Shown here: positions 993 to 25,624 of the stretch, piece after piece
Layout: the number at the start of each line of letters is the position of its first letter
Numbering within the stretch: position 1 is the first letter of the stretch
Assembly: GCA_013538715.1 (NCBI GenBank)
Contig: JACAFH010000003.1
Coordinates: 1-35,477 of the forward strand
Origin: Candidatus Nitrosothermus koennekei
GTDB taxonomy: Archaea; Thermoproteota; Nitrososphaeria; Nitrososphaerales; Nitrosocaldaceae
Reading direction: 5' to 3'
DNA: 35,477 nt
Translations under genes and position numbers: made by a program
The notes under the pieces: generated by a model
Told to the model about the DNA's origin: nothing
Seen by the model: the letters and a program-made list of their open reading frames with translations, nothing else
Database searches by the model: none

Positions 993-1002
993 TTATTAAT
1001 TG

Positions 1003-1120: not shown

Positions 1121-1124
1121 GATA

Positions 1125-2345: not shown

Positions 2346-2393
2346 TAAGAGTAAGAAGAGTATAAGAAAGAACAGTTTATTTATTTATTTATT

Positions 2394-2427
2394 ACTTAAC
2401 CTAGTTAAGTACTTAACCCTGTTAAGT
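2394..2427. repeat. Two adjacent 17-bp palindromes ACTTAAC-N3-GTTAAGT
   Basis: Positions 2394-2410 and 2411-2427 each read ACTTAAC-N3-GTTAAGT with perfect 7-bp arms, placed side by side with no spacer. Two dimer-sized sites in tandem look like an operator, a recombinase accessory site or an origin or partition element. The remaining 2428-2692 spacer holds the inverted repeat at 2462-2503, a purine-rich run (about 2560-2610) and the promoter of the next gene. Confidence 0.65.
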
Positions 2428-2461
2428 CGTTATTTCAATCTTACTAACTAAAACCATTCCC

Positions 2462-2503
2462 CGATCTTATACCTGTTAAAAATTGTGTTTAGTGATAAGA
2501 TCG
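2462..2503. repeat. Inverted repeat CGATCTTAT-N24-ATAAGATCG
   Basis: Perfect 9-bp arms at 2462-2470 and 2495-2503 flank 24 bp. The repeat is 35 bp downstream of the tandem palindromes and about 190 bp before the next gene. It could form a hairpin or act as a protein-binding pair. Confidence 0.55.
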
Positions 2504-2663
2504 TTATATTATAACATATATTCAACTTTAGAAGATTTTTCTTATCATGTATAGGATAGGGGAAGAAAGAAGGAAGAGGAAGGAAGAAGAAAGAAGAGTA
2601 TGTAGTACTACTAGAGAGAGTGAATGAGTAAGCAAGAGTAACTTACTTCCCTTACCTTACACC

Positions 2664-2670
2664 TTATATA
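2664..2670 (+). promoter_or_regulatory. TATA box of the first DUF3782-type gene
   Basis: TTATATA is centred 26 nt upstream of the GTG at 2693. This supports a leaderless transcript and the GTG start choice. Confidence 0.55.
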
Positions 2671-2692
2671 CTACTTCAACACAGTCTTACTT

Positions 2693-3379: not shown

Positions 3380-3422
3380 TGAATAGAGGATTACAACTAG
3401 GCAAAGCCGATAATATATGTAG

Positions 3423-6400: not shown

Positions 6401-7121
6401 TTGTTATAGTACTCTTAGCTCCTCTTAATTCGTTGAACTTGGTTATAAAATATCTTCTATCATCATTTAAGAATCCCTTCTCTTGTAGATACCATAGTAT
6501 CATCATCTGCATCATGAAGTTATCTATGAACTCATCCTTTTCCTCTGTAACTCCTTTTATCTGTTTGGATATATATCTTTTGCATTTCTGATACAATTTA
6601 TAGAATTCCTCTATTAGATCGCTACGATCAAATAGTTTATTTATCTGTTGTTGTATTGAACTAATGCTTGATTCATCTTTCATATCTAAGAATTCTTTAA
6701 TCTTTCTTTTGAATAAAATACTCAATTTATCTATATTTTTAGTCATCTTTCTCCTATAATAGTAATCTTTTATGAATAACTTTTTCTCACCTTTATTATC
6801 AGTATAGAATAGAAAGATCAATCTTATGATATAACCAGTAGTCCCCATACTATACTTGCTACTAAAATACTCTATCACATTCTTTTCATTGCTTTCTACT
6901 AAAAGAAATCCTTCATATCTGTTGAGTCTATTATCGCATAACGCTGGTATTAGATAGAAATTATCATAATATTCACAAGATCCATCTATATCTATTGGTA
7001 TTTTCTTCTTCTTATATTTATTATCAAGTATAGCCTTTATAGTATTGTAATCTATCTTTATAGGTTCACTAATGTTGTCTTTCTTTCTTGTTGTTTTAAA
7101 GCTCATAATACCATCCCACAT
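3423..7121 (-). CDS. Large N6-adenine DNA methyltransferase with target-recognition region (Eco57I/PglX-like)
   Basis: This 1232-aa class gamma-type adenine methyltransferase should methylate DNA in a restriction-like defence system. An alpha-helical N-terminal part (1-360) precedes [10 protein letters not shown] (369-378), SAM motif [11 protein letters not shown] (431-440), a motif II region [12 protein letters not shown] (504-515) and the catalytic NPPY (716-719). The C-terminal third contains [20 protein letters not shown], typical of TaqI/Eco57I-type target recognition domains. I see no convincing PD-(D/E)XK nuclease in the N-terminus, so cleavage probably depends on the neighbouring PLD-helicase. 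The reading overlaps the helicase stop by 26 nt, or by 11 nt if Met6 (7106) is the start, indicating translational coupling. Confidence 0.88.
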
Positions 7122-10100
7122 GTACAGAAGATGGTTCTAGAGATGGTATAGTTATACCTCTGCTTCTAAAGTGTTCAAAGAGCGTGTTTATAACTACCCT
7201 TAGATCATTTATCTTTACTTGCGGTTCTTCATTTTTATTATTACTTATAGTTATAGAGTTAGTAAATGTAAGAATACCCTTTATCTCCTTTGATGATTGT
7301 ACTGGTAACATACCTATTATATTGGCAACAGTATAGAACTTATCGTCAAATGATTCATCTTCTTTATTTATTTCTTTGACTTTATCCTTCTCATTGACCA
7401 ACGCATTATATAGCTCTCTAAGAAATCCTTTCTGTTTATTCACTTCTTTGTTCTTCATATCCTCTACTATCTTCTCACATTTATCCTGCATAACTTTAAT
7501 ACATTCTATAGCCTTATCTACATTACTTATATGGCTTCTATTCTTTATTAAATCAAGAAATATTAAAGGAGTTTCATAAGTTATATTTATTGTATTCTTA
7601 TAATTTTCATCTACACCATCATTACCATAACCATCCAATGTGTCAGGTGTACTATTATCATGGCCGGTCTTCGTGTTATTACTTATATCTATACGCAGTA
7701 TCTTCTTATCTATCTTAGTTTGTCCTCTATAGAATTCGTATATACCTATGATCCTTTCACTATCGTTGCATGCTTTACTTATATAGGTATAGTAGGGGCT
7801 AGACCCCTTAGCCTTAATCAGATCTTTGACCTCTTCAAAGTCCTCTGGTCTATAATTGAGTTCATATTGGATTATATTGAGCAATTTGTACTCATCTATC
7901 TGCTCTTTAGGTATGCCTTTCGGTATAAACTGTTTAAAGTCTTCATCGAGTCCATATTCCTCAAGTTCTGTCATCTTCTTCTCTGATATACTCTTTATCT
8001 TCTCCCCAAATGTTTGGATGTTGATATCTTCATTTGGATGCAGTATTCTTACATCCTTACCTATTATTAATGTTATATCATCTATCTTCTCCTTAAGCTT
8101 CTGCAATACTCTAACAACAACATCTATCTCATCACTTGGTAAATAGTTTATAACAATGATATCCTTCTCATTACCTATTCTATTTACCCTTCCTACTCTT
8201 TGTACTATCACCATAGGATTCCATGGGAGGTCATAGTTAATTACAGCATCTGCATCTTGTAGGTTTACACCCTCGCTTAACACATCAGTAGAGATTAGTA
8301 TATGTATCTCATTATCATATGGTTGTGAGTTATTAATATAGTTAACAATGCCCTTCTCTCCATATCTATTTGCTATTGGTGCAAACCTTCTTATGTAGTT
8401 CATCTTTGTCTCAATATCTGTATCTCCCGTAACTAATCCTATTCTTACATTACCGTTAGCATTATTATCATATTTCAGCCATCTATGCAGTATGATCTCT
8501 TTGTTAACCCATTCCTTCAAGTTATGATAGAGATAGTAGGCAGTATCCTTGTATTGAGTGAATATAAGCACTTTCTTACCATATAATGAGGGTATATCAT
8601 TAAAATGTTGTGATCTCTTGCTTGGTTCATATAGTAGTTGTTTTAGTATCTCGAATTTTGGATCATCCTTGCCATATCTGTATACATATAGTTCTATATC
8701 CTCTTTTGGTAGTTTCTCTAGTGTTAATGGTCTACCTAGGGTATCCTTCTCCTTCATATCATCCAATATACACAATAGACCTTCTATCTTCTTTAGATCA
8801 CTATCTATATTATTAATCAATAACCTTAAACCGAGCATTAACTTAGAAAACTCATTCATAGTATTGTTAGCATAATTATTATTGTTGTTGGCAGGGTTAC
8901 TCTGTTTTTGCATATAATCTTCTGCATACTCCGTCATTATATCCTTGGCTTTTCTGAACCAATCCATATTCTTATAATTGCTCCCAATATCTATGTCTAC
9001 ATAGTATTCTTCACTAATCTCTTCAATCTCCTTCATAATATTGGCTTTATCCATAGCTTCTTTTATTACACATACCAAATCATCTTCATTCTTTATCTCA
9101 TGATATTTGCTAGCCAGAGTAGTATAGAATATCTTCTCTTTCTCATATAGCCTTCTCAGTGTGGTCTCAAATGAATAGATACCACTCTCTAACCTCTTAC
9201 CTAAGATTAATCTGAATAGATCAGCTATATCTATGTAACGTTTGGTAGTATTAACATCTTTATCTCTATCTCTCTGACTCTCCTTCGTTCTACTATCTAT
9301 CTCTATATCTACACTTGTATCCTCAAATACAACGAACCTTACCCCATATAGTTTAGTATACTCAAATACTATATTGTAAAGTTCTTCCCCTACCTTCTTT
9401 ACAAGATCTCTATATTTCTTAGTATAAAATGATTTACATTCTATACTATAGGGTTTAGGATCCTTAAATATTAATGGCTTATTGTTAATTGTTATATCCT
9501 TAAACTCTTCCATTATATATTTCCTAGTTCTCAATACCATTATCTCATCAAGTACTTTAGTCTTTAACTCATCAGCCTTCTTTAATAACTTATTCTTTAT
9601 CTCCTTGTCATTGGTCTTTGTATATTCTCTCTTTAGCTTTTGGTATTCACTTATTAGTTCTGGTACGTTAACTCCTTTCATATTAAAGGATGTAAATGCT
9701 ATATCAGTGAACAACCTTATCAGATTATATATATCATTTATAGAATTGTTTAGGGGTGTAGCGGTTAACAATATGAACTTATTAGAGAATCCATCATGCT
9801 TGTTTTGTAATAATCTAGCATTCTTCCATCTATTTGTGTTACTATTTCTATATTTGTGAGCCTCATCTATTATGAAGAGATCATATTCATCTGCTAACTC
9901 CTTTACTTCTCCCTCTTTCATCTTCTGGAATAAGCCGAGTGATATGAATCTTATCTTAGCTTTCTTCTCATGTGAATCATAGTTGGTAGCACTTAGTACG
10001 TATTCCTTATCATTGGGATAAACACATATACACCTCTTTACATAAGTCTTAAGGAAATTGTCAGATTTGATAAGTAGTTCTTCCCATTGAGCAATTATAG

Positions 10101-11109
10101 ATGGTGGTAATATTAAAAGAACTGAGGGTTCTTTCTCTATCTTATTATCCAACCAATGTGGGTACTTTCCACTTATGAACTCTTCTATTATCTTGCTAGC
10201 TATGTAACTTTTACCTAAACCTACAGAATCTGCTAGTATTACACCATTGTAATAGTTGATGATCTTAATTGCGTTTAACATACCAACAACCTGGAATTCT
10301 AACAGGATATCCTTCCTAACAAGCTCAAGTATCATACCTTCAAACCATCTATAGATGAGATATTTGAATAAAAGTTCAGGATCTTCTAGATATTGACCAA
10401 AGAGTGGGTACTTTTGATTTATTATTGTTGGTTGTATCTTTGCTTTCATGGTTACACCAGATACCTCTATAACCTTTATAAGATCCTCTCTAAACTCCAT
10501 GGAATCTTGCCATAGATCCTCGAACCATTTATCTAGGTGTTCAACATCTACATGATCAGTTATTAACACATTCAACTCCTTATTATTTGTCAGTCCTTCA
10601 GTAGTAAAGTTTGAGGAGCCAACTACTGCAACGCCTTTCGACTCATACATAGGCGTAGAATTTGTTATGAAGAGATATAGTTTAGCATGTAATCTTTGCT
10701 TATCATACAACCTAACATCTATAATTCCATTTGCTATTAAATTCCTTAACGATATTACTCTATTAATCTCTTCATCATTAAGATCCCTCTGTAGTTCTTC
10801 AAGCATTCTTGCCTTGAATAACTCTTTTAATCTATAACCAGCAACAAGCTCCTCCCTTGTAGGATATGTGGTTTCATTACCCATTACTATCCTTAAAAAG
10901 GGTTTTATGGTAAGGTATGAGGGTTCTGGAAAGTCATCCTTCACAAGGTTGAAGCCGGTAAGGAAGAAATAACCTATAGCAAATTTTGCTTCCTTGCAAT
11001 TTTTAAGCTGATACCTTATAACATCTACAAGCTTATTCGTAATATTATCTATTATTTTTTGATTCATGTATAGGATTGTATTCTCTTCTATCGTACTTAA
11101 GTAATTCAT
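7096..11109 (-). CDS. PLD-nuclease / SNF2-type superfamily 2 helicase fusion (defence-associated)
   Basis: The protein has 1337 aa. The N-terminal phospholipase-D-like nuclease domain (about 1-200) has HAKLYLF (His141, Lys143) and GSSNFT (164-169). The SF2 motor follows, with Walker [10 protein letters not shown] (293-301), Walker B IIDEAH (413-418), motif III TATP (449-452), motif V region [15 protein letters not shown] and arginine-finger motif [12 protein letters not shown] (about 970-979). The C-terminal 350 aa are unassigned. Such PLD-helicases pair with large adenine methyltransferases in archaeal and bacterial defence loci. The motor probably translocates on unmodified DNA and the PLD domain cuts it (inference). 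Met15 (11067) is an alternative start that reduces overlap with the upstream small ORF. DISARM-like in parts, but no drmA/drmB/drmC is present. Confidence 0.9.
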
Positions 11110-11191
11110 ATAAACGCTTATTCTGTCTTATCTCACGTTCAATCGCTCTAGTAACCTCTTCCTTGCTAGGTTTCATTTCCTTTATCTCCAT
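11045..11191 (-). CDS. Small ORF (48 aa) overlapping the start of the PLD-helicase
   Basis: I do not recognise this protein. It begins [20 protein letters not shown], is highly charged and is predicted helical. Its 3' end overlaps the helicase reading by 65 nt (23 nt if the helicase begins at Met15), in another frame. This is the overlap expected for translational coupling in a compact operon. The position resembles small antitoxin, regulator or adaptor subunits that precede large defence effectors, but the sequence itself gives no function. An ordinary annotation length cut-off would miss it. Confidence 0.55.
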
Positions 11192-11215
11192 ACTTGAATA
11201 AATGGTATAGGGCTG

Positions 11216-11386
11216 TTATAAAGTTAATGCTGAATCTAGTCTCTTAATATGTTTTCTTATCCATTCTCTCCTATCTCTAGATTGAAGTTCTTGCTTGCTG
11301 GTACTATGTAGTGCAATAAGGTTCCTATCCCTATCCCTGTTCTTGTTCTTGTTCTTGTTGCTACTGTTAGCTGGTTCTACACTCAT
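11216..11386 (-). CDS. Small ORF (56 aa) at the head of the defence operon
   Basis: This unrecognised small protein starts MSVEPANSSNKNKNKNRDRD. The N-terminus is a simple Asn/Lys/Arg/Asp repeat and the C-terminal half (LHSTSKQELQSRDRREWIRK) is basic and probably helical. Its stop is 24 nt upstream of the 48-aa ORF start, so it could be the first gene of the operon. The low-complexity first half weakens the case. A basic helical tail would suit nucleic-acid binding, but that is inference. Confidence 0.4.
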   Translation of the reverse strand: MSVEPANSSNKNKNKNRDRDRNLIALHSTSKQELQSRDRREWIRKHIKRLDSALTL

Positions 11387-11397
11387 TCATAATATAA

Positions 11398-11640
11398 TAT
11401 AGTAGCAGTGGTAGGGGGTAGGGGTAGAAGTAGAGGTAAGGGTAGAGGTAAAGGTAGTGATAGTAGTGGTGGTAGTAGGGGCAGGAAAGGTAGAGGTATC
11501 TGTTGACATGGATCTTCTTGAGGAGGTTCAACTGTAATAGTAGTAGTAACTGTTGATAGTTGTTAGAAGGTAAGAAAAGGTGTAGGATGGGTAGGAAAGA
11601 TAGGAGAGGTAAGAGTAGAAGGAATAAGAACAACTACTTC
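11398..11640. repeat. G-rich low-complexity tract (GGTAGNGG-like)
   Basis: The plus strand has many GGTAG/GGTAA units with G runs of three to five (about 11410-11500), then purine-rich stretches to 11640. The long minus-strand frame across it encodes only Leu/Tyr/His/Pro low-complexity sequence and is not a credible protein. The G runs could form a quadruplex. It lies upstream of the defence operon. Confidence 0.5.
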
Positions 11641-11760
11641 TATTCATTCTCTTTTTCTCCTTCTACATTAGAAGAAATATAAAACAATATACAGATATTA
11701 TCTTCGTCTTATTAAGGTTTATACAGATTTAAACCGAAAACGATAAATCTCCTAGACTCT

Positions 11761-11870
11761 ATATGTGTATAACTAGATGATAAAGCAGGATATGACTATG
11801 CAAGCAGATTCATAACAAAGTTAGCAGGTATAGGAGAGTAAAATCATACACTCAATTCTACACTATCAGA
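11761..11870 (+). repeat. Direct repeat copy 2 (40-bp perfect core 11761-11800)
   Basis: The core matches 1003-1042 in all 40 positions. Downstream homology continues in degenerate form, including TTAGCAGG-ATAGGAGAGTAAA and CTCAATTC. It decodes to the same short peptide tail as copy 1, ending GIGE and stop. Unlike copy 1 it is followed by no integrase and preceded by no tRNA. It lies about 370 bp beyond the head of the defence operon, so the two copies enclose 10.7 kb with the integrase, a nuclease-like gene and the defence genes. Confidence 0.8.
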
Positions 11871-12247
11871 TGATGCATGTATAGTAGAACTAAACTTGTA
11901 GAGGCAATATAATATTTCATGATTGATCTATCATCAATAATTGCTGATGATATAATAAGATTTGTTGGCTTATGCTATATGTATCAGCATTATCTAATAA
12001 ATACTATACATAGATGAGGTACAACTAATCAATACATTTGTTATTAAAGTATTGAATGTATTAATGTTACCTAACTTAGATTTGATGAGATAACATCACT
12101 AAGAACTTTTATCTTTAGATAAGGATAGAGAGTTATGCTATCTATTTAATGTATGGTATATCTGCCATTTCTCAAGAAGAAGAGGATTAGCAAAGTTATT
12201 CTATATAAACATCTATTATTTATCCATTAAATAAATAATATGATATT
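11871..12247. other. AT-rich intergenic region after repeat copy 2
   Basis: No convincing gene is visible. A 32-codon plus-strand frame near 11920-12020 (MIDLSSIIADDIIRFVGLCY...) is protein-like but short and may be a decayed fragment. The RTX-like gene ends at the right edge, with AT-rich sequence just beyond its stop. Confidence 0.35.
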
Positions 12248-13666
12248 TTATCTTCTTCTAGCATAAAGCATCATTACAGCAAGTGATGTTCCTATTATGC
12301 CTATTGCTCCCACCGCTAGCTCTGGTACAACGTTGAATGATGTATCGAATGTTGTTATGATAGGATCTCCAACCTCTGTAGTCAGTATTACTGTGTATGT
12401 TCCAGCAGTACTTGTATCACAACCTGTTCCTGTAAAGTCATCAGGATATGTTACTGTGAATGGACTTGGAGGCACTGTTTGTGGTAATGTACCAGTATAT
12501 GTACATTCACTATTAGCAGGTGATGGTGTTATTACTTTTAAGCCTGTTATCTTCACTGGAGTATCAACGCTAGATGAGAATATTATATCTACTGAACTTC
12601 CAATAGGTATAGGAGAAGAGCCTGCACTTGTACTTAATGTTGCTAAACTTGATATATCATCATATTCACAGTTTATTTCAGAATCTGGATCACTTGCACA
12701 TATATCTTGATTTCCTAGAGTTGATGTTTCTGCAACAACATCATCACCATCTATGCTGTCATTATTGACTATACCATCTTTAGCATTGATTACATCATTG
12801 CCTCCATTTGCTGTATCATTGCCAACATTTCCATATATATAATCTCCATAAAGATAATCATTGCCATCTCCTCCATCTAGTATATCATTGCTTCCAGTTA
12901 GTGTATCATTGCCATCAAATCCACCTATATTATCTCCAGCAAGCCAATCATTACCATCTCCTCCCTTTAGTATATCATTACCTCCAGTTAGTGTATCATC
13001 GCCATCCAATCCAACTATATAATCTCCAGAAAGCTCATCGTCACCAATTCCTCCCTTTAGTGTATCATTGCCTCCAGTTAGTGTATCATTGCCATCCCGT
13101 CCATCTATATCATCTCCAGCAAGCCAATCATTACCATCTCCTCCCTCTAGTGTATCATTCCCTCCAGTTAGTGTATCATTGCCATCATATCCAACTATAT
13201 AATCTCCATAAAGCCAATCAGCACCAGCATTACCACACAATATATCATCTCCTCCCTCTAGTGTATCATCACTAGAAGTTCCATCTATATTATCTCCCAC
13301 AAGCGTATCATTACCATCCAATCCAACTATAAAGTCATCTCCTTCCTTACCATATATCACATCATGATTGTTAGTACCAACTATCAAGTCATTGCTATTA
13401 GTGCCAGTGAATGGACTAGAAAAGGATGAAGAACCAGCAATCTTTATAGTATATGTGTTACTACCTATAGTAATGATATCTCCATCTTCATATACAGTAC
13501 CATCTACTTTAACCTCATCATTACCATCACTATCAAAGTTACCTAGCTCTATAATATGATTATTACAATCTACTGCTTGAGCATATACCATTCTAACATC
13601 TGTTATAGTCATTGATAACACAATTAGAAGTGTAGCAGCAATTATTATACTCTTTTTATTATCCAT
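12248..13666 (-). CDS. Secreted surface protein with RTX-like Ca-binding repeats and C-terminal sorting-type tail
   Basis: The protein has 472 aa. A signal peptide (about 1-30, ending MVYAQA) is followed by a small N-terminal region. A repeat region (about 85-300) is built from GNDTLTGGNDTLEGGDGNDW-type units that follow the hemolysin-type GGxGxDxUx calcium-binding pattern, fused to D-rich GDxI linkers. A beta-rich domain (about 335-440) follows. The last 25 residues are PELAVGAIG, a hydrophobic segment and ARRR, which resembles PEF-CTERM signals processed by archaeosortases. It is probably a calcium-stabilised cell-surface protein. RTX exporters are not adjacent, and the Sec-type signal peptide suggests a different route from bacterial RTX toxins. 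Nothing indicates a toxin domain. Confidence 0.85.
   Translation of the reverse strand: MDNKKSIIIAATLLIVLSMTITDVRMVYAQAVDCNNHIIELGNFDSDGNDEVKVDGTVYEDGDIITIGSNTYTIKIAGSSSFSSPFTGTNSNDLIVGTNNHDVIYGKEGDDFIVGLDGNDTLVGDNIDGTSSDDTLEGGDDILCGNAGADWLYGDYIVGYDGNDTLTGGNDTLEGGDGNDWLAGDDIDGRDGNDTLTGGNDTLKGGIGDDELSGDYIVGLDGDDTLTGGNDILKGGDGNDWLAGDNIGGFDGNDTLTGSNDILDGGDGNDYLYGDYIYGNVGNDTANGGNDVINAKDGIVNNDSIDGDDVVAETSTLGNQDICASDPDSEINCEYDDISSLATLSTSAGSSPIPIGSSVDIIFSSSVDTPVKITGLKVITPSPANSECTYTGTLPQTVPPSPFTVTYPDDFTGTGCDTSTAGTYTVILTTEVGDPIITTFDTSFNVVPELAVGAIGIIGTSLAVMMLYARRR
12820..13340 (-). repeat. 90-bp tandem repeats inside the RTX-like gene
   Basis: The segment CTCCAGTTAGTGTATCAT recurs with a strict 90-bp spacing (12983, 13073, 13163, with a variant at 12893). 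This corresponds to 30-residue units. Near-identical DNA implies recent unequal-crossover amplification. Confidence 0.8.
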
Positions 13667-13686
13667 ACAATATACATATTTCTTAT

Positions 13687-13694
13687 CTATATAT
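13687..13694 (-). promoter_or_regulatory. TATA box of the RTX-like gene
   Basis: A TATATATA element is centred about 25 nt upstream of the ATG at 13666 on the minus strand, consistent with leaderless transcription. The 13695-13878 spacer toward the next gene shows no other feature. Confidence 0.5.
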
Positions 13695-13878
13695 ACTTTT
13701 ATATAGATGCAAATTATCTAACATCTATCATATTTGTATAGATTATTATCTAGTTATGCTATAGTAATTCATCATTGTAACTCATACATCAAGATTATCT
13801 TCATTCATTATATGCCATTGCAATTGATGTGATCAAGATACAGTTTAATAGCATTATCGTAATATCGTGACATTATCC

Positions 13879-13885
13879 TTAAATA
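13879..13885 (+). promoter_or_regulatory. TATA box of the second DUF3782-type gene
   Basis: TTAAATA is centred 26 nt upstream of the ATG at 13908. Confidence 0.55.
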
Positions 13886-13907
13886 CAATTTTAACACAAT
13901 TTTACTC

Positions 13908-14801
13908 ATGCAGAGTAATGAACTGAAGAAGAAGTTCTTAGATATGTTAGAAGGGGATAAGGAGTTTAGGCATGCTGTAGCAGGTGCAATAGGCTACAAG
14001 GAGATACTGGATAGGTTTGCTGATTTAGAGGCTAGAATGGATGAGAGGTTTGCAAAGATTGAGGAAGAGATTAGAGATCTTAGAGAAGAAAGCAATAATC
14101 TTAGAAAGGATATGCAAGAAGGATTCAAGAGGCATGATGAGGAGTTTGTTAAGCTTAGACAGGATATGAATGAAGGATTCAAGAGGCATGATGAGGAGTT
14201 TGTTAAGCTTAGACAGGATATGAATGAAGGATTCAAGAGGCATGATGAGGAGTTTGTTAAGCTTAGACAGGATATGAATGAAGGGTTTAGAAGACATGAT
14301 GAGGAGTTTGTTAAGCTTAGACAGGATATGAATGAAGGGTTTAGAAGACATGATGAGGAGTTTGCTAGAGTATGGCAAAGTATAGAGAATCTTAGAAAGG
14401 ATATGAATGAAGGATTCAAGTATATGGATCTAAAGGTATCTGCATTAGGTGCAAGATGCATAATGAATGAGCAATCGGTTAGAGAAGCATTAAAGGGTAT
14501 AGTTGGGGAGGAGTTAGGCTATACTATAAGTGAATGGAATACTTATGATGATGAAGGTTATGTATATGGTTATCCTAGTAGCATACAATTAGATATAGTT
14601 GTTAGTAATGGTAAGATAATTGTTATAGAGATAGCATCACATATTAAGAGGAGTGATTCATTTATGCTTAAGAAGAAGGTAGAATTGTATAAGAAGAAGG
14701 AGGGTAAGGAGGTAAGTAAGATGATGTTTGTTACACCATTCATAGATGATGATGCTAGAGATGCATGCAATAGATTAGGTATAGAGGTTTATACAGCATA
14801 A
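13908..14801 (+). CDS. Coiled-coil protein with tandem 18-residue repeats and nuclease-fold C-terminus (DUF3782-type)
   Basis: The protein has 297 aa. The head (KEFRHAVAGAIGYKEILDR) matches that of the gene at 2693, so the two are paralogues. Residues about 73-162 consist of five 18-residue units of the form FKRHDEEFVKLRQDMNEG, giving a long coiled coil. The C-terminal domain (about 180-297) contains IQLDIVV and IIVIEIASH. This is the D...E part of a PD-(D/E)XK fold, but the usual Lys after E-x is not obvious, so catalysis is less certain than in the paralogue. The gene is monocistronic, with its own TATA box. Function is unknown. Confidence 0.75.
   Translation: MQSNELKKKFLDMLEGDKEFRHAVAGAIGYKEILDRFADLEARMDERFAKIEEEIRDLREESNNLRKDMQEGFKRHDEEFVKLRQDMNEGFKRHDEEFVKLRQDMNEGFKRHDEEFVKLRQDMNEGFRRHDEEFVKLRQDMNEGFRRHDEEFARVWQSIENLRKDMNEGFKYMDLKVSALGARCIMNEQSVREALKGIVGEELGYTISEWNTYDDEGYVYGYPSSIQLDIVVSNGKIIVIEIASHIKRSDSFMLKKKVELYKKKEGKEVSKMMFVTPFIDDDARDACNRLGIEVYTA
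14124..14393 (+). repeat. Five 54-bp tandem repeats in the coiled-coil gene
   Basis: Repeat units start at 14124, 14178, 14232, 14286 and 14340. The first two are essentially identical and the later ones carry a few changes (TTCAAGAGG becomes TTTAGAAGA); the fifth is the most diverged. Units encode 18 residues (7+11), so the coiled coil can lengthen or shorten without a frameshift. Confidence 0.9.
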
Positions 14802-15215
14802 GTTATAGTTTCAACCCTCATATTTCAATCCTACTATAGTTGATTCAAACGTGCTTGTGTGAACACACATAGAGACTATGTCTATAGACATGTGATTAAG
14901 GTAATGAGTGAAGCTAGAGTGTGTAACTATAATAACTAAATAACCCTCACGCTTGTTCAAAAAAATTTTCCTAATCTATATTTTTCTATTATAAACTTTC
15001 CTATACTCAAATAAATTACGCTTGATGCTATTAAGTTGTTAAGTGTATCATTTAGAGAGATTTTTTTGTTCACGCTTGATGCTATTAAGTTATTAAGTAA
15101 AGTGATACTTTAGTAGAGAGAAGAGAGTTTGAGATTATGATTATTAACTTTTGATATAATTATTAATAATACATATAAATCTTTCTATAAATAAAGAATA
15201 GCTTACGCTAGATAC
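14802..15215. other. Repeat-rich spacer between two convergent genes
   Basis: This 414-bp spacer holds no gene. It contains TGTGTGAACACACA (14856-14869, arms TGTGTG/CACACA), the perfect 14-bp palindrome ATGTCTATAGACAT (14878-14891) and two 27-bp direct repeats with one mismatch (15018-15044 and 15072-15098) beginning ACGCTTGATGCTATTAAGTT. A shorter match (ACGCTTG) lies at 14949-14955. A T-rich run lies between the direct repeats. The layout resembles a small plasmid origin or a partition/terminator region, next to the primase-helicase gene. Confidence 0.5.
15018..15098. repeat. Pair of 27-bp direct repeats, 54 bp apart
   Basis: 15018-15044 and 15072-15098 differ at a single base (TTGTTAAGT versus TTATTAAGT). 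They may be iterons of an integrated replicon or duplicated terminator elements at the end of the primase operon. Confidence 0.7.
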
Positions 15216-17789
15216 TTATTTGTCAGCAGCACTCTTTAGTTCACATACAGCAGAGTGATATACAAGCTCTTGCATTCTCTTTATCAAATCATCATCTTCA
15301 TACAATACCAACTCTGGTTCTTCTTTTGTTAGTGTTAGCATATCATTTATCATAATCTTCTTATTACAGAATATTGCAGGTGCATGTAACTCATTACATC
15401 TCTTACACATTATATGATTATCATAATCTACAAAGTATCTCTCAATGTAATTGATGATATTTATAAGTTCACTTATTTTATATGACTTTCTAGTGTTTAT
15501 GCTAGTATTGCTACTATCATCAGAGAGTTCATTGATTCTATCACTAAATTTGCATCTCAAGAGATATGTTATTACCTTATCTCTCTCTTTTTCATATTTA
15601 TGATCTGTTAGTAAGCCTCTATCTCTTAATCTTTTGCTAAATAATTGTTTTGTCATAACATCAATACCTTTAACTTTACAGAAGGTCTTGTAATATTCAT
15701 AAACAACTGCAAATTCAAGTCTTTCATTATCAGTCATTACTAGATACTTATCAACAAACTCTGTAAAGTTATCAATCTCCCATAACCACTCTGCAGTCTC
15801 ACTCTTCACTATATTAGGGATAGTTAATCCTTCTTGCATCACTCTTTGTAATGCTACTATCATTAGATTTAGAATACCTGAACTCTCTTGCAATAATATA
15901 TCAGCATAATTCTCTATCCTCTTCTCTTCAGGTATAACATAATCAAAGTTTATCATTACTAATCTTCTTAACATACCTAATGTAAATTCATGAATGATAG
16001 GTTTATTATTTGTCATAATGATTAAATGGAAGGTAGGTATAATCTCTATTGGATGATGGTATAATGCTCTTACAGATTTAGGTTCAAGTGATGTCATAGC
16101 CTTAAGATTTGCCTCATTTAAATAAACCTGTTTAGGCTCAGATATACATATTAGATGCTTATCTTTACTCTCAATCAACTCTGGATTCTTTCCTTCTACT
16201 TCATTAGCATTAATCATGCTTATGTTAGAGTATCTCATATAATCTCCTAATATGTTACTCATAACCTTCATTAGTGTGCTTTTACCATTTGCTCCAGAAC
16301 CATAGAAGATAAATGCCTTCTCTTCTCTCCTCTTCAATAAGAATGAACCTAATAATTGAACAAGGAATAATGCCTTCTCTTTATTGTTATTACAGATTGT
16401 TAGAATAAACTCTCTAAACTTATCACATTTAGCATTCTCATCATATGAGCAATTAATTGCTTTGGTTGGATAGTATCTCTTCACCTCTTCTAATGTTAGA
16501 GTCTTTATCTTATTGCTATTAACCTCAATAGCACAATTCTTTGCTAGTATGATATTATCAGGTATGCTGTTTAATGATTTACTATCAATGCTAAGGAATA
16601 TACTTAATGTTGCTATCAATTCATCAATTGATGACTTGCTCTTAGTTACATGTATGAAGTGCTCTAGATGCCTCTTACACTCTTCATAATTGATACACTT
16701 TAGTTCCTTCTTTATCTCTTCACAATAATTGATAAAATCATTAATTAGACTCTCCTTAGCATATTCATTAATCCATATGTTATTATCCCATTTTATCCAC
16801 TCCTCGATTTTTGATACGTATCTATAGTTATCAACAAACAATGCTCTCTCTATACCTCTCTTCCTCTCTGATAGAAGATATTTACATACAAACATATGTG
16901 CTACATTTATGTTATCATCATCACTATGAGTATTTTTGAATATCTCATTTATTGTCTTTATAACATCATCACTAATTCCTAACTCTCTTAAACCTTCTAT
17001 CCCTTTAACATTCTCTTTCTTATATGTCTCCTCTACTACTGTTAGCCTACTCTTAAGTTCTTCATCATTAAAGAAGTAGCATACATATCTACAGATCTTT
17101 AATGCTTCCTCTAATGTTATGCTATTCTTCATCACTGCTGATAGATAAAACCATAGATAATCTCTTTGACCATTGCTATAGTATTTTGCTAGAGCATAAG
17201 ATAACCTTATTATCCTCTCCAAAGTAGAGATAATAGCAAGTAATTTATCATTATCTATATGCTTAATCTTATCTATACCATTTATTATCTGATAATTCCT
17301 ATCAATATGAATAAAGTATCTCTTCTCAAAGTAAAGTTTTGCATCTAAAGAAGTATCTTTTGCTAGATTAATAACATCTCTATTCTTCAACTCTCCTCCA
17401 TCAATGAGGAAGTAGAAATGCATACCTCTAGGAGTATACTCTTTCATAGTATCTAACCCTTCTTCTATTAAGTAATGATCTATCAATAGAGAATATTCCT
17501 TGCTATCACAATCTATACCTATGATATAGTTAGAAGATCTTAACTTACCTAAGCGTATAGCAAATGTATTACAATTATACTTTGTTATATACTCTTCTAA
17601 CTCCTCTAATCTTGAGTATTCATCATATGAATAATGCTTATCTAATGGAAAGTCTTTGTATGGTGTCTTGTTCCATGCTTCCTTCTCATCATTATAGTAA
17701 TGATTGATAGGGATATGATCTATTCCATATCTATTCTCCCTTGCAAGTATCTCCCTTATCTCTTTCTGGCCGAATAATTCCGTCATCAT
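15216..17789 (-). CDS. Primase-helicase: N-terminal prim-pol (AEP) domain plus D5/SF3 helicase
   Basis: The protein has 857 aa and is the replication initiator type found in plasmids and proviruses. The N-terminal archaeo-eukaryotic primase domain has IIGIDCDS (Asp93, Asp95) and TPRGMHFYF (His124). A helical linker leads to an SF3 helicase with Walker A FYGSGANGKST (495-505), a Walker B-like LICISEP, sensor IIMTNNKP and a following RRLVMINFDY. The C-terminus carries a winged-helix-like region and CKRCNELH, half of a possible zinc site. Its ATG overlaps the stop of the upstream 126-aa gene in TAATG, so the two are translationally coupled. It strongly suggests that part of the accessory region is an integrated replicon. 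Confidence 0.92.
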   Translation of the reverse strand: MMTELFGQKEIREILARENRYGIDHIPINHYYNDEKEAWNKTPYKDFPLDKHYSYDEYSRLEELEEYITKYNCNTFAIRLGKLRSSNYIIGIDCDSKEYSLLIDHYLIEEGLDTMKEYTPRGMHFYFLIDGGELKNRDVINLAKDTSLDAKLYFEKRYFIHIDRNYQIINGIDKIKHIDNDKLLAIISTLERIIRLSYALAKYYSNGQRDYLWFYLSAVMKNSITLEEALKICRYVCYFFNDEELKSRLTVVEETYKKENVKGIEGLRELGISDDVIKTINEIFKNTHSDDDNINVAHMFVCKYLLSERKRGIERALFVDNYRYVSKIEEWIKWDNNIWINEYAKESLINDFINYCEEIKKELKCINYEECKRHLEHFIHVTKSKSSIDELIATLSIFLSIDSKSLNSIPDNIILAKNCAIEVNSNKIKTLTLEEVKRYYPTKAINCSYDENAKCDKFREFILTICNNNKEKALFLVQLLGSFLLKRREEKAFIFYGSGANGKSTLMKVMSNILGDYMRYSNISMINANEVEGKNPELIESKDKHLICISEPKQVYLNEANLKAMTSLEPKSVRALYHHPIEIIPTFHLIIMTNNKPIIHEFTLGMLRRLVMINFDYVIPEEKRIENYADILLQESSGILNLMIVALQRVMQEGLTIPNIVKSETAEWLWEIDNFTEFVDKYLVMTDNERLEFAVVYEYYKTFCKVKGIDVMTKQLFSKRLRDRGLLTDHKYEKERDKVITYLLRCKFSDRINELSDDSSNTSINTRKSYKISELINIINYIERYFVDYDNHIMCKRCNELHAPAIFCNKKIMINDMLTLTKEEPELVLYEDDDLIKRMQELVYHSAVCELKSAADK

Positions 17790-18169
17790 TAGCCATCAAC
17801 CTCCTTTATGTATCTCTCATAACATAATCTAGCAATATTCAACCATGCCTCAGCTAAGAATACACTAAGGTTATCAAATTTGCACAGTATAACACCCTTT
17901 GACATACTTGTGAATGTTCTAGCATATGCTTTGAGTTGTCTTATATCTACCAGAGCATCCCTTACATTTGTATTGATATAATTTATGCTATTCTTCCAAT
18001 CACTTTTGTTTGAGTATGTTAAATGTATATCTTGGTTTATGTTTGAGAATTTCTTACCGCTATATGTTAGAGAGTGAATATTGTTAAAAGCATAATTCAC
18101 ATTAAGGATATTACTGCTTATATTATTTACTTTATATATTCTTCGATAGGGTGGCGGAGTATCTTGCAT
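17789..18169 (-). CDS. Hypothetical 126-aa protein upstream of the primase-helicase
   Basis: I do not recognise this protein. It starts MQDTPPPYRRIYKVNNISSN, has a polar Asn/Ser-rich first half and a helical second half (ALVDIRQLKAYARTFTSMSK and FLAEAWLNIARLCYERY) that could support dimerisation. It shares one base with the primase start, so they form an operon. The start codon lies within the first copy of a repeated GGAGT(A)TCTTGCATAT motif that flanks a TATA-like sequence, suggesting repression of this operon by a DNA-binding protein, possibly this one (inference). Confidence 0.65.
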   Translation of the reverse strand: MQDTPPPYRRIYKVNNISSNILNVNYAFNNIHSLTYSGKKFSNINQDIHLTYSNKSDWKNSINYINTNVRDALVDIRQLKAYARTFTSMSKGVILCKFDNLSVFLAEAWLNIARLCYERYIKEVDG

Positions 18170-18295
18170 ATAGACCCCTCCTTATATAGGGACCAATATG
18201 CAAGAACTCCAGTAGGTATATCTCTCTAAGAGCCATACCTACCAGTGGATATAATATACCACCCTTCTTTAACGAAAAATGAATGGAGTTCTTGC
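18156..18295. promoter_or_regulatory. Three copies of GGAGTTCTTGC(ATAT) around the primase-operon promoter
   Basis: Copy A is at 18156-18171 (GGAGTATCTTGCATAT), copy B is inverted at 18196-18210 (ATATGCAAGAACTCC), and copy C is direct at 18285-18295 (GGAGTTCTTGC). A and B flank TATATA (18183-18188) almost symmetrically, and A covers the start codon of the 126-aa gene. Between B and C lies another hairpin with perfect arms GTAGGTAT/ATACCTAC. This looks like an operator or origin iteron set controlling the replication operon. Confidence 0.6.
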
Positions 18296-19108
18296 TCACT
18301 TTACTCACATCTCTGTAAATAATATACAGAGCATTCTTATAAAGTTTATCTCAAATGGCTTTGACACATTATTATGCTTTGATAGACATCCTAGCTACTA
18401 TTGACAGATTGTATGTCAATATCTTTAGTATGAGCTATTGTTTCTCTTTATACTAGTGTTCAAATCTTCTCTTTACTGCTGATATAATAGGCTAAATTTA
18501 TATTGATAGGAATAGTTTCCTCTTATACAGGAATACCATCTCCCTTCAAACCTTGCCTCCTCTCTTCCATCCTTTGGTATTACTCTTCAATGGTATGTAT
18601 GGAGATGCTCATGCTTTGCTATTATACTTCATACCTTTCTGGAAAGAATCCTTTATCAGCACATATATTACCATATGAAGAAGATGTTCTAGTATATGTT
18701 ATGCATACTAGAATCAGAATATATTGACGAACTATTGGCTAAAGAATACTTAGAGCATAAAGTATATGATACTGCATTAAAGTATGGGAAGTATACAATT
18801 AAAGATGGATTAGCATATAATGAGAATTACCCATATGTTATCAATAACATATGTAGCATATGAAGCATTATAATGAATAATCAATTAATAATTAAAAAAT
18901 ATAGTTCATATAATTAAGCTTATATACAAATAATGTTTTGTTACATAACTATCAAGATGTTTTTAATATACCCTTGACTATTGTATGGATTGGCATGTGT
19001 ATAATAGGTTAGTTATGATGAGACATTCTTTAAATTGGATAGATGAGAATGGATGATAGCAATAGACTAATGCAAAAGTAGATTATAAAATAAATAGATT
19101 ATAGATAA
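18170..19108. other. Long intergenic region with inverted repeats and decayed coding fragments
   Basis: After the operator-like repeats come two further inverted repeats: CTCTGTA-N7-TACAGAG (18311-18331) and ATTGACA-N7-TGTCAAT (18400-18420). Short protein-like frames occur at 18355 (MALTHYYALIDILATIDRLY, stop after about 33 codons) and 18696-18863. They look like pieces of one or more decayed genes, possibly of mobile origin, but I cannot assign a family. The 74-aa frame at 18503-18727 is not convincing. Confidence 0.4.
18696..18863 (+). CDS. Possible small protein or gene remnant, 55 aa
   Basis: I do not recognise this frame. It starts MLCILESEYIDELLAKEYLE and continues with a Tyr/Lys/Asn-rich stretch ending YVINNICSI. 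The amino-acid pattern is protein-like, with an amphipathic helix followed by a possible beta segment. A stop lies just upstream of the ATG. It stands alone in a decayed region, so a C-terminal remnant is as likely as a functional small gene. Confidence 0.3.
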   Translation: MLCILESEYIDELLAKEYLEHKVYDTALKYGKYTIKDGLAYNENYPYVINNICSI

Positions 19109-19705
19109 TCAAAACGCACTCTCAATACTACCTTTTGCTGTAAACTTTATACTAGTTAATTGAGTTCTACTTTCCCAGATTAATATTCTCCCTTTTAATC
19201 CATCATCACTATTGAGAACTCCCCATGTGATAACTTTACCATTTCTAGACAAGCCTTGGTCTATAATTGCATTTATGAATATCTTATCATTACTTATTCT
19301 TGCACTACCAGCTTCTATTATATATGTGCTATCATCTATAGTTATAGAACCACCTTGTATAAGATAATGACTCCTTATCCATAAGTTAATCTTTTGTTGC
19401 ATCTGCGTCATCATATCTTGTGACATACCCATACCCATGCCCATTCCTTGTCCCATATTCATCATTTGCATCATCATAGGCATTCCAAACATCATTGTTG
19501 GATCCATCATCATACTACCTCTTGACATCATCATAATACCTCTACTAAGAACAACCTCTAACTCAATATTATTACCTTGAGTATCATTACCTACAATGGT
19601 AACTATACTTACATCATCTTGTATATTGTCGTCTGTTTGAGCATATGAGTTATTTATAATTAGTATTGATAATAGAAAAGATGCTAGTATTATTGCTGCT
19701 CTCAT
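19109..19705 (-). CDS. Secreted or surface methionine-rich protein, possible copper binding
   Basis: Starting from the ATG at 19705 gives 198 aa. This start is preferred over the ATG at 19729 because a TATA-like element (19728-19742) lies about 28 nt upstream of 19705 and overlaps 19729. The N-terminus MRAAIILASFLLSILIINNS is a clear signal peptide, with cleavage probably after YAQ. Residues about 55-105 are extraordinarily rich in Met and Gly (SRGSMMMDPTMMFGMPMMMQ, GMGMGMGM). The C-terminal 85 residues look like a small beta domain. Clustered Met binds Cu(I) in several periplasmic copper proteins, so extracytoplasmic copper handling is plausible. The family is not recognised. Confidence 0.75.
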   Translation of the reverse strand: MRAAIILASFLLSILIINNSYAQTDDNIQDDVSIVTIVGNDTQGNNIELEVVLSRGIMMMSRGSMMMDPTMMFGMPMMMQMMNMGQGMGMGMGMSQDMMTQMQQKINLWIRSHYLIQGGSITIDDSTYIIEAGSARISNDKIFINAIIDQGLSRNGKVITWGVLNSDDGLKGRILIWESRTQLTSIKFTAKGSIESAF

Positions 19706-19727
19706 ATTTTTAATGTGAGTTTCTATC

Positions 19728-19742
19728 ATATAAATTTAATGC
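19728..19742 (-). promoter_or_regulatory. TATA-like promoter deciding the start of the Met-rich gene
   Basis: On the minus strand the sequence reads CATTAAATTTATATG, centred about 29 nt upstream of the ATG at 19705. It covers the alternative ATG at 19729, arguing against that start. Confidence 0.45.
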
Positions 19743-19856
19743 AATATTCATATGTATGAATCTTAATTTTATATTAAATGACCTTATAAATAATTATACC
19801 TTAATGTATTTATAATATATAACCTCATTATTATTAGTAGATCTCAGTGACTAAAA

Positions 19857-19866
19857 TATTTAAAAA
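19857..19866 (+). promoter_or_regulatory. TATA box of the Lrp-domain gene and TiaS
   Basis: TATTTAAAAA is centred about 27 nt upstream of the ATG at 19889, the spacing of a leaderless or near-leaderless transcript. Confidence 0.55.
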
Positions 19867-19888
19867 GAAGAGATTGTAATGATTTGAT

Positions 19889-20122
19889 ATGCCAAAAGCA
19901 TTTGTATTAATAAACGCTGAGATAGGCGCTGAAGATAAAGTTGTTGATGAATTAAAGAAGATAGAGAATGTTAAAGAGGTTTATGCAGTATATGGAGCAT
20001 ATGATGTAATAGCAAAGGTAGAGAGTGATAATATGGATAAAGTAAAAGAGACTATAACTTGGAAGATAAGAAGGTTAGAGAATGTTAGATCAACTCTAAC
20101 TATGATAGTGATAGAGAGCTAA
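19889..20122 (+). CDS. Stand-alone Lrp/AsnC ligand-binding (RAM) domain protein
   Basis: The protein has 77 aa and corresponds to the C-terminal regulation-of-amino-acid-metabolism domain alone, with no helix-turn-helix. It shows the beta-alpha-beta pattern MPKAFVLINAEIGAEDKVVD, then VKEVYAVYGAYDVIAKVE and VRSTLTMIVIES; the VYGAYDVIAKV strand is characteristic. Such single-domain proteins form dimers or higher oligomers and bind small ligands such as amino acids. It may modulate full-length Lrp proteins. The stop is 2 nt before tiaS, so the two are probably co-transcribed. Confidence 0.88.
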   Translation: MPKAFVLINAEIGAEDKVVDELKKIENVKEVYAVYGAYDVIAKVESDNMDKVKETITWKIRRLENVRSTLTMIVIES

Positions 20123-20124
20123 TC

Positions 20125-21432
20125 ATGCTTAGTATAGGGATAGATGATACCGATAGTAGTGAAGGTATGTGCACTACATACCTAGTCTTTAAGCTGATCC
20201 AATTTCTTATTAAAGAGAATGCAACCATAGTAGATTATCCACTATTGATAAGACTTAACCCAAATATCCCATGGAAGACTAGAGGTAATGGTGCATTATG
20301 TATTAGAGTTAAAGATATTGACGAGGATCGCCTCTTCATGCATCTAAAATACTTGATAGATACTTATGCTCATGTTGGTAAGAGATCAAATCCTGCAGTG
20401 GTAATATTCTCTGCAATAGATGATGAGGTTAGAGAATTTAGTAGGAAGGCATTATATACATTACTTAAGAGAAGCGAGGGATTCAGATTAGCAGAAAAGG
20501 CTGATAGAGTATACTTTAAAGGTAATGGTCAAGGTTTGATAGGAGCAATAGCAGCTGTTGGAAGTGTCCTTAACGAACATACATATGAATTATTGGCATA
20601 CCGTTATGCTAATAACTGTAAGAGGAAGAGGATATTATCTAAAGAAGATGTTATAGCAATGGATAAAGCAACATATCCATACACATTTAATAATTATGAT
20701 TATAATCATAATAGAATATTATTAACCCCCCATGGAAAAGATCCTGTATTCTTAGGTATAAGGGGTGAAGAACCAAATATATTAATACGAGCAATCAAGA
20801 TGCTGAAGATAGAAGAAGAGTTAGAAGGTTATACTATATTTAAGAGCAATCAAGGTACAAACGCTCATCTTACGAATAGAATAGAGACTCTTAAACCATA
20901 CACTTCTGGTTATATTGAAGGAAGTATAGAAGAATTATATGCTCACAAAGGAGGTCATACATTCTTTAGCATAAATGGTATAAGATGTGCAGTTTATGAA
21001 CCAACTGGATTATCTGCTGTAGCACAAAGATTAGTTAAGGGGGATATAGTTAGAGTTGGTGGGGGTATTAGAAAAGCATCAAAGAATCATCCAAGAGTTT
21101 TAAATGTTGAGTATATACAAGTATTAAAGTTAACGGATATTAAATTAACGCTAAATCCCATCTGTAGTTGTGGAAAGAGACTCAAGTCAGCTGGAAGGAA
21201 TAAAGGATATAAATGTGAGAGTTGCGATTTTAAAGGCTTCAAAGAAAGGGAAGAGGTTATAGTTAAGAGGGAAGATATAGATGAAAGGCTTTATATACCT
21301 ACACCAAAGGCTCATAGACATCTAACTAAACCACTACAAAGATATGGATTAAAGAGCAAGGATTATCCTCTCATTGATGGTTGGTATGTATCTAATCATG
21401 TAAAAGTAGCGGGGGGTGGATTTTCGGCTTGA
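20125..21432 (+). CDS. tiaS: tRNA(Ile2) 2-agmatinylcytidine synthetase TiaS
   Basis: TiaS attaches agmatine to C34 of the CAU-anticodon tRNA-Ile so that it reads AUA only. The protein has 435 aa, close to the family length. The N-terminus MLSIGIDDTDSSEGMCTTYL carries the GIDDTDS signature of the ATP-dependent catalytic domain. The middle includes NQGTNAHL, followed by an OB-fold region (about 250-330). A C-terminal zinc ribbon has Cys347, Cys349, Cys364 and Cys367. It follows the Lrp-domain gene by 2 nt. Its last 26 nt are antisense to the 3' part of the initiator tRNA-Met gene, including part of that tRNA's T-loop intron, which is an unusual gene overlap. Confidence 0.95.
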   Translation: MLSIGIDDTDSSEGMCTTYLVFKLIQFLIKENATIVDYPLLIRLNPNIPWKTRGNGALCIRVKDIDEDRLFMHLKYLIDTYAHVGKRSNPAVVIFSAIDDEVREFSRKALYTLLKRSEGFRLAEKADRVYFKGNGQGLIGAIAAVGSVLNEHTYELLAYRYANNCKRKRILSKEDVIAMDKATYPYTFNNYDYNHNRILLTPHGKDPVFLGIRGEEPNILIRAIKMLKIEEELEGYTIFKSNQGTNAHLTNRIETLKPYTSGYIEGSIEELYAHKGGHTFFSINGIRCAVYEPTGLSAVAQRLVKGDIVRVGGGIRKASKNHPRVLNVEYIQVLKLTDIKLTLNPICSCGKRLKSAGRNKGYKCESCDFKGFKEREEVIVKREDIDERLYIPTPKAHRHLTKPLQRYGLKSKDYPLIDGWYVSNHVKVAGGGFSA

Positions 21433-21434
21433 CT
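21421..21434 (-). other. Predicted tRNA intron 3 (T-loop, about 59/60) of tRNA-iMet
   Basis: Fourteen nt (AGTCAAGCCGAAAA) split TTCGAA from the T that closes the T-loop. A runs allow the boundary to shift by up to 2 nt. T-loop introns near 59/60 are known in some archaea. Confidence 0.8.
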
Positions 21435-21456
21435 TTCGAACCACCGTTCTGCGGGT

Positions 21457-21470
21457 TTCTTACTAGAAGT
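21457..21470 (-). other. Predicted tRNA intron 2 (canonical 37/38) of tRNA-iMet
   Basis: Fourteen nt (ACTTCTAGTAAGAA) interrupt the anticodon loop between A37 and A38. CTT pairs with AAG inside the insert, and the cuts TA^A and AA^A fall two bases into 3-nt bulges, matching a relaxed bulge-helix-bulge. Confidence 0.85.
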
Positions 21471-21501
21471 TATGAGCCCGCCGGGATACCTGACTTCCCC
21501 A

Positions 21502-21529
21502 CCCTTATAGGATAATCTCGCTACGGAAT
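21502..21529 (-). other. Predicted tRNA intron 1 (position 7/8) of tRNA-iMet
   Basis: These 28 nt separate G7 from T8. The boundary can slide by up to 3 nt because of G runs. TTCC near its 5' end can pair with AAGG near its 3' end, giving a 4-bp core like that of a relaxed bulge-helix-bulge. Exact cut sites are not certain. Confidence 0.8.
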
Positions 21530-21556
21530 CCCCGCTATACTTTCCATCTACAAGCA

Positions 21557-24647: not shown

Positions 24648-24687
24648 AATATATTTGAGAAGGAGAGTAGAGATGGATCGGTTAGAT

Positions 24688-24776
24688 GGGCCGGAGCTGA
24701 TACGGCCAATCGTCTAGCCTGGTAGGATGTTCCCTTGGCATGGGAGAGGTCGTGGGTTCAAATCCCACCCGGTCCA
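24688..24776 (+). tRNA. tRNA-Ala (anticodon GGC) with a predicted intron at position 7/8
   Basis: Acceptor GGGCCGG (24688-24694) pairs with CCGGTCC (24769-24775), giving the G3:U70 pair that identifies alanine tRNAs. The remaining arms are regular: D-arm 24712-24728, anticodon stem TTCCC/GGGAG with loop TTGGCAT (anticodon GGC), variable AGGTC, T-arm GTGGG-TTCAAAT-CCCAC and discriminator A24776. CCA is not encoded. The 15 nt at 24695-24709 sit between the acceptor stem and T8 and must be removed to restore a 74-nt tRNA. Taking the bases directly before T8 as the acceptor gives no pairing, which supports the intron. Confidence 0.92.
24695..24709 (+). other. Predicted non-canonical intron (position 7/8) of tRNA-Ala
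   Basis: The 15-nt insert AGCTGATACGGCCAA contains a perfect 4-bp mini-hairpin GCTG-ATA-CGGC (one G:U). The bases GGA and CAA flank it like the 3-nt bulges of an archaeal bulge-helix-bulge motif. A strict cut after the second bulge base would give a 14-nt intron and one extra base, so the right boundary is uncertain by 1 nt. Confidence 0.75.
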
Positions 24777-24820
24777 TTATCAACCTTACACTTAAAAATG
24801 TGTTATGCGTTACTTTATTC

Positions 24821-25624
24821 ATGGGTATTGATGTAATTGAAGAGCATGATATATTTTGGGAGCTGGCTGGCGAGATAAGAAGAAGCATACTCTTCAAATT
24901 AAGTGAGAGAAGTATGAAGCTATCCCAACTTGCTAAGATATTAGATGTGAGCATACAAGAAGTACATAGAAATATAGGTAGATTATTAGATGCAAGACTT
25001 GTAGAGAAGGATTCAGAAGGTTTCATATACTTAACTACATATGGTAAGACTATATTAACACAAATACCATCCTTTCAATTTCTTGAAAAGCATAGAACAT
25101 ATTTTGAGGAGCATATTCTGGGTGATTTACCAATGAAATTTGTGCAGAGAATAGGTGCATTAAATAATTCTGAACTTATTACTGGTGTAGTAGCAGTATT
25201 TGAGAGGTGGAAGAGTATGTATAATAATGCTAATAATAATATAATGGAGATTATGGCTCAAGTTCCATTGGATCTTATAGAACCACTAGTAGATAGAATC
25301 AGCAATGGTGTAAAATTCTCGTATATATTTGGCAAGAATACAATAATACCAAAGGGTAGAAGAGAGTTACTTAATAGATTAGGGTGGAATAATTTTATAG
25401 CAAAGGGTTTGGTAGAGAGGAGGATGATAAACAAAGTTCAAGTTATGGTTATAGTAACAGATCAAGAAGCTGGTGTGCTCTTTCCTGATAAGAAAGGTGA
25501 TACAGATATCAATGAAATGTTTTATAGTAAAGACAAACTATTTCATGAGTGGTGTATCGATTTCTTTAGATATACATGGTATGCTTCTGAGATATTTGAT
25601 GAGAATCTACTTAAAGAGGTATAA
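24821..25624 (+). CDS. Winged-helix transcriptional regulator with FilR1-type (DUF1724) C-terminal domain
   Basis: The ATG at 24821 is chosen because longer frames run back through tRNA-Ala and a TATA-like CTTAAAAATG is centred about 26 nt upstream. The protein then has 267 aa. Residues about 10-75 form a winged helix-turn-helix (EIRRSILFKLSERSMKLSQL, then ILDVSIQEVHRNIGRLLDAR). The C-terminal domain (about 90-267) resembles that of FilR1-type archaeal regulators, which sense an unknown ligand. No operator or target gene is evident. It ends 7 nt before the convergent lysS stop. Confidence 0.8.
   Translation: MGIDVIEEHDIFWELAGEIRRSILFKLSERSMKLSQLAKILDVSIQEVHRNIGRLLDARLVEKDSEGFIYLTTYGKTILTQIPSFQFLEKHRTYFEEHILGDLPMKFVQRIGALNNSELITGVVAVFERWKSMYNNANNNIMEIMAQVPLDLIEPLVDRISNGVKFSYIFGKNTIIPKGRRELLNRLGWNNFIAKGLVERRMINKVQVMVIVTDQEAGVLFPDKKGDTDINEMFYSKDKLFHEWCIDFFRYTWYASEIFDENLLKEV

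Follow-up and report, generated by a model that had tools for sequence, protein, structure and literature searches.

Results

The tRNA-Ala(GGC) locus and its intron

The window analyzed here comprises positions 1–35477 of one contig from a 96%-complete genome of Candidatus (Ca.) Nitrosothermus, an ammonia-oxidizing archaeon of hot springs (Nitrosocaldaceae; 1,458,290 bases, 34 contigs), and contains, at 24688–24776 on the forward strand, a transfer RNA gene, tRNA-Ala(GGC), which is interrupted near its 5′ end and preceded by a short leader segment complementary to its own 3′ acceptor strand. The LysS of this genome has its named relatives in Ca. Nitrosocaldus and other Thaumarchaeota. The locus reads leader, GGGCCGG, AGCTGATACGGCCAA and then TCGTCTAG...CCGGTCCA; since both exons lie contiguously within 89 nucleotides (nt), it is not a split tRNA with halves at separate loci. 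An initial annotation of this DNA had proposed a tRNA-Ala(GGC) with a 15-nt insert, across which an acceptor stem with the alanine-specific G3:U70 pair is formed, and both proposals were confirmed: ARAGORN missed the unspliced 24688–24776 and called tRNA-Ala(ggc) once the 15 nt were removed, indicating that excision restores a canonical tRNA, and the resulting acceptor stem GGGCCGG:CCGGTCC holds G3:U70. A parser, which tried every excision compatible with a bulge-helix-bulge (BHB) motif against tRNA rules, ranked a single 15-nt intron at site 7/8 first. Exon 1, the 5′ acceptor strand GGGCCGG (tRNA positions 1–7), thus occupies 24688–24694, the intron AGCTGATACGGCCAA 24695–24709 and exon 2 (positions 8–73, from the parser and from ARAGORN on the spliced form) 24710–24776. 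The Rfam scan gave a weak match resembling transfer-messenger RNA below the cut-off, and this identity was dropped in favor of a tRNA with an insert. Two open reading frame (ORF) calls overlapping the gene, 24682–25026 (reverse strand) and 24740–24824 (forward strand), look spurious, and the start of the latter likely lies later, near 24822.

The splice motif consists of a 4-bp central helix between GGCC of exon 1 (G2–C5; 24689–24692) and GGCC of the intron (24704–24707), two 3-nt bulges, GGA and AAT, with predicted cuts at like places (GG^A, AA^T), and a 7-bp outer helix of the minimum free energy structure, in which TTAGATG (24682–24688, the last base being G1 of the tRNA) pairs with CGTCTAG (24711–24717). 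Instead of an inner helix, a 9-nt loop adjoins the 5′ bulge, so the motif is a relaxed form and not a strict hBHBh′; in tRNA-Ala orthologues with longer introns an inner helix is possible. Folding of the locus, as recommended by the initial annotation, yielded a BHB, though with helices other than those it had proposed: its GCTG/CGGC mini-hairpin with flanking bulges is incompatible with the splice sites and gave no BHB fold. Two PF01974 genes encode EndA in this genome, a number in keeping with an endonuclease of the broad-specificity alpha-beta type, and an RNase P RNA of the archaeal kind is present as well.

Among related archaea, the 7/8 intron of tRNA-Ala(GGC) was found in Nitrosocaldaceae (Ca. 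Nitrosothermus and Ca. Nitrosocaldus), in a second family (G007, G023 = SAT137) and, with a length of 10–12 nt, in a third (G041, G048, G055), while the remaining orthologues are intronless with an unchanged exon join. Exon identity and site are kept over all three families, the intron varying in sequence and length (10–45 nt). The insert is hence not a chance feature, because each related gene either joins the exons identically without an intron or has a different insert at 7/8.

A stand-in strand in the leader

The leader segment TGGATCGG (24674–24681, forward strand), referred to below as the stand-in strand, forms 8 pairs, one of them U-G, with the 3′ acceptor strand and A73 (CCGGTCCA, 24769–24776). 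Thereby, an A faces U70 where exon 1 has G3, so that the precursor helix would lack the G3:U70 charging signal. Over four genomes, the duplex between the 45-nt leader and 3′ acceptor positions 66–73 amounted to −12.6 kcal/mol for the 18 genes whose introns lie at 10/11 or before it, and to −4.4 for 117 others (p = 2e-10), the best-scoring of which, tRNA-Gln(CTG) of the present genome, was misparsed and properly belongs to the 5′-intron group. When the leaders were re-paired with the acceptors of other genes, none of 20000 permutations was as good. Furthermore, 13 of the 20 distinct stand-in elements also pair with N73.

The same association was observed within single isoacceptors. For tRNA-Ala, TGGAYCG(G) is present in all 11 distinct intron-bearing leaders (ΔG −12.6 versus −5.2 in 30 intronless ones, p = 1e-6) and is retained although its distance to the gene varies from 6 to 32 nt. 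For tRNA-Gln(TTG) with an intron at 10/11, each of the 15 intron genes parsed, which come from five families, carries a stand-in (−14.6 versus −7.0 in 15 genes without intron, p = 5e-6, the latter including L294, apparently a misparsed intron gene), and for tRNA-Ser(TGA) with an intron at 8/9 this holds for 8 of 8 against 6 genes without intron (p = 0.002). Intron and stand-in also occur together in two Gln genes from one family outside Nitrososphaerales but within the phylum. For comparison, a presumed Pyrobaculum genome was inspected, whose 20 tRNA regions revealed introns elsewhere, no confident one at 10/11 or earlier and no stand-in leaders.

Predicted folding of the precursors

Thermodynamic modelling of the tRNA-Ala precursor at 37 °C predicted the BHB with 0.95 and the acceptor stem with 0.00, and these values turned into 0.00 and 1.00, respectively, when the stand-in was deleted. 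Replacement of the element by A8 in the 18 genes raised acceptor pairing from 0.08 to 0.89 and lowered the BHB from 0.33 to 0.02. Shuffling of the whole leader in the 5′-intron group acted similarly (acceptor 0.11 to 0.74, BHB 0.35 to 0.07) and left acceptor pairing in control genes unchanged, both for those with other introns (0.85 and 0.85) and for intronless ones (0.91 and 0.87).

A variant was found for tRNA-Trp (intron at 9/10; L349/L040, contig C9 of G000 at about 140420), whose leader segment GCCATGCC is complementary to the D-arm (GGCATGGC) and not to the acceptor; here, the predicted BHB dropped from 0.58 to 0.04 with a shuffled leader. This gene additionally bears an anticodon intron with C/D-box-like motifs. 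The leader of the elongator tRNA-Met (eMet) gene L237 of G001 likewise has no acceptor stand-in, but contains AGCCGGTT, which is complementary to the 5′ anticodon stem, and its shuffling reduced the predicted BHB from 0.82 to 0.22.

Introns in other tRNA genes and further features of the window

According to the parser, 20 of the 43 tRNA loci of the genome contain introns, nine of them at 37/38. Further sites are 4/5, 7/8 (Ala GGC, Ser GCT), 8/9 (Ser TGA), 9/10 (eMet, Trp), 22/23, 30/31 and 59/60, and introns at 10/11 are carried by Gln TTG and, after a wider search, by Gln CTG. For three loci (L016, the tRNA-Ala(TGC) of G000, and L216 and L221 of G001) inserts were placed in or near the T-stem or the anticodon loop with a weak or ambiguous BHB.

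The initiator tRNA-Met(CAT) gene (iMet; 21407–21536, reverse strand) carries three introns, at 21505–21532 (28 nt), 21456–21469 (canonical 37/38 region) and 21421–21434 (59/60). A run of G leaves the placement of its 5′ insert ambiguous, yet only the register at 4/5 gives a full BHB, and the replacement of A-U by G-C in the central helix of its Nitrosocaldus counterpart lends support to this register. The 5′ intron of iMet thus lies at another site than that of tRNA-Ala, contrary to the initial assumption of a common one. The idea of a 7/8 site shared within the lineage consequently loses the pair with iMet, but stands for tRNA-Ala(GGC) of the three families and gains tRNA-Ser(GCT), which turned up when the other tRNA genes of this genome were checked for 7/8 inserts as had been suggested. 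The spread of a single intron, offered as another possibility, finds no support in the intron sequences, which differ and share only the ends dictated by the BHB.

Elsewhere in the window, judging the translations by eye, an ORF for a XerC-like integrase follows tRNA-Val(GAC), together with a large methylase/helicase pair (3423–11109) and a large ORF (15216–17789) which resembles a plasmid-type primase-helicase. From these genes the region 916–20000 looks like an integrated element; the 3′ end of tRNA-Val, as a possible attachment site, was not found again within the window.

Discussion

The intron site, its BHB, the stand-in strand and the association of such strands with 5′-proximal introns, as read from the sequences, together with the predicted effect on folding, make it probable that the tRNA-Ala(GGC) gene at 24688–24776 is functional, that it has a BHB intron at 7/8, and that its leader supplies a temporary acceptor helix, which enables splicing and forces it to precede RNase P. 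The intron would be cut by the two-subunit type of archaeal splicing endonuclease. Its BHB needs the 5′ acceptor strand (GGCC) and the 5′ strand of the D-stem, each of which has a better partner within the tRNA. By pairing with the 3′ acceptor end, the stand-in would free exon 1 for the BHB, and the precursor would adopt a clover-like shape, in which the stand-in helix acts as acceptor stem and the BHB hairpin takes the position of the D-arm, next to normal anticodon and T arms. Because one strand of the outer helix lies largely in the leader, splicing would have to precede the action of RNase P; a premature cut would remove the leader along with the outer helix, and the stand-in helix itself should bar the enzyme. 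After excision, exon 1 would displace the stand-in, and RNase P would then trim the leader. We infer transcription of the element, action of the endonuclease, the order of processing and the final strand exchange; in Methanopyrus kandleri, the processing order is opposite to the one proposed here (PMC3695527).

Several observations weigh against this mechanism. Some 5′-intron genes have no clear stand-in, namely Nitrosocaldus eMet, the tRNA-Ser(GCT) of G007 and iMet of the present genome, in whose leader it is absent and for which acceptor pairing of 0.95 and a BHB of 0.00 are predicted (an intron-internal GTAGCG considered as its stand-in was rejected with a partition-function value of 0.00); eMet of this genome forms just 5 pairs within the acceptor. 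Conversely, four intronless genes have acceptor-complementary leaders (L128 and L127, tRNA-Ala of family f17; L306, Gln; L320, Ser), possibly as relics of lost introns or by chance in GC-rich leaders. Shuffling the 40-nt leader of the present tRNA-Ala(GGC), a weak test, gave an acceptor value of 0.23 compared to 0.00, with 20% of the shuffles as low, unlike the clear effect of targeted deletion or A8 replacement. In models of the second-family tRNA-Ala (G007, G023), the acceptor is indeed suppressed, but the BHB comes out weak. Even after splicing, the leader-bound fold is predicted to be more stable than the cloverleaf, by 8 kcal/mol at 37 °C and by 4 at 75 °C; the strand exchange would therefore need tertiary contacts, modification or protein. 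The shift of the TATA box expected for longer leaders appeared in a motif search merely as a trend (median −39 versus −31, p = 0.18), and the p-values given above overstate independence, as the genes share ancestry.

The leader complementarity could also be a functionless relic of a 5′ tRNA duplication that accompanied insertion of an ordinary non-canonical BHB intron. Such an origin would fit the resemblance of the stand-ins to exon 1, to which they are identical in many Gln genes, and a 5′ tRNA fragment in Caldiarchaeum has been tied to intron gain (PMC3293823). A relic, however, should not persist as just the 6–8 nt facing the acceptor in five or more families, nor should a copy of exon 1 match N73, as many stand-ins do. 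Where stand-in and exon 1 differ within the helix, pairing to the 3′ strand is kept, and mismatches are confined to the helix ends: the Ala stand-ins always have A3 and, except for G007, T4 in place of G3 and C4, and both changes preserve the pairing. With predicted folding depending on the element in addition, we regard a mere relic as unlikely.

Even less can be said for the reverse assignment, in which the stand-in is the true 5′ acceptor strand, the mature tRNA starts with GGATCGG and GGGCCGG is lost as part of a 28-nt intron. The parser does return this solution, second in score (36.7 versus 38.3), but it converts the alanine identity pair G3:U70 into A3:U70, has a poor BHB (2.4 versus 4.0) and clashes with the intronless orthologues, which keep GGGCCGG followed by TCGTCTAG; it was discarded as very improbable. 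That the gene is dead, or that its mature RNA keeps the 15 nt, might be considered for a sequence from a metagenome-assembled genome. The initial annotation had named a second intact tRNA-Ala(GGC) gene as an argument in this direction, yet the locus is the sole one found in the 96%-complete genome, the other Ala genes being CGC and TGC, and the conservation of exons and site over three families while the intron varies renders a pseudogene scarcely credible.

If the proposed mechanism is true, it answers how an intron whose BHB binds an acceptor strand can be spliced, namely with a leader that lends the 3′ end a temporary partner; it would assign a coded function to tRNA leaders and predicts a fixed, reversed order of processing. 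The stand-in would also be a marker by which tRNA genes overlooked by scanners can be found, and the mechanism may account for the way in which introns could settle in this part of archaeal tRNAs, the acceptor and D region.

Comparison with known systems

Like the non-canonical BHB introns of Thermoproteales and Thaumarchaeota, the tRNA-Ala intron is short and has a 4-bp central helix, with cut sites placed symmetrically in the 3-nt bulges; the occurrence of several introns per gene and a presumably two-subunit EndA are further common features. Reviewed sites include 20/21, 22/23, 25/26, 30/31, 53/54, 59/60 and, as an extreme, 3/4 (PMC4090602), with 7/8, 8/9 and 10/11 not among them, and, unlike here, a leader segment that pairs with the 3′ acceptor strand is not described in the reviews. 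Nor is an element of this kind mentioned in the open literature searched, to which the main Thermoproteales surveys do not belong, and a stand-in accompanying most introns near 7/8 in related archaea seems to be previously undescribed. Base pairing of leader and trailer segments in the service of the splice motif is known from the split tRNA halves of Nanoarchaeum and from permuted tRNAs (PMC4090602, PMC4033280). There, however, the additional pairs make up the BHB itself or hold two RNAs together, whereas here, within one transcript, they would occupy the 3′ acceptor strand so that a BHB can form elsewhere. In bacterial pre-tRNAs, pairing of the leader with the 3′ RCCA hinders RNase P (PMC9433436), in analogy to the effect suggested here; but while that pairing lengthens an existing acceptor stem by 1–2 pairs, the archaeal stand-in would replace the stem and is tied to introns.
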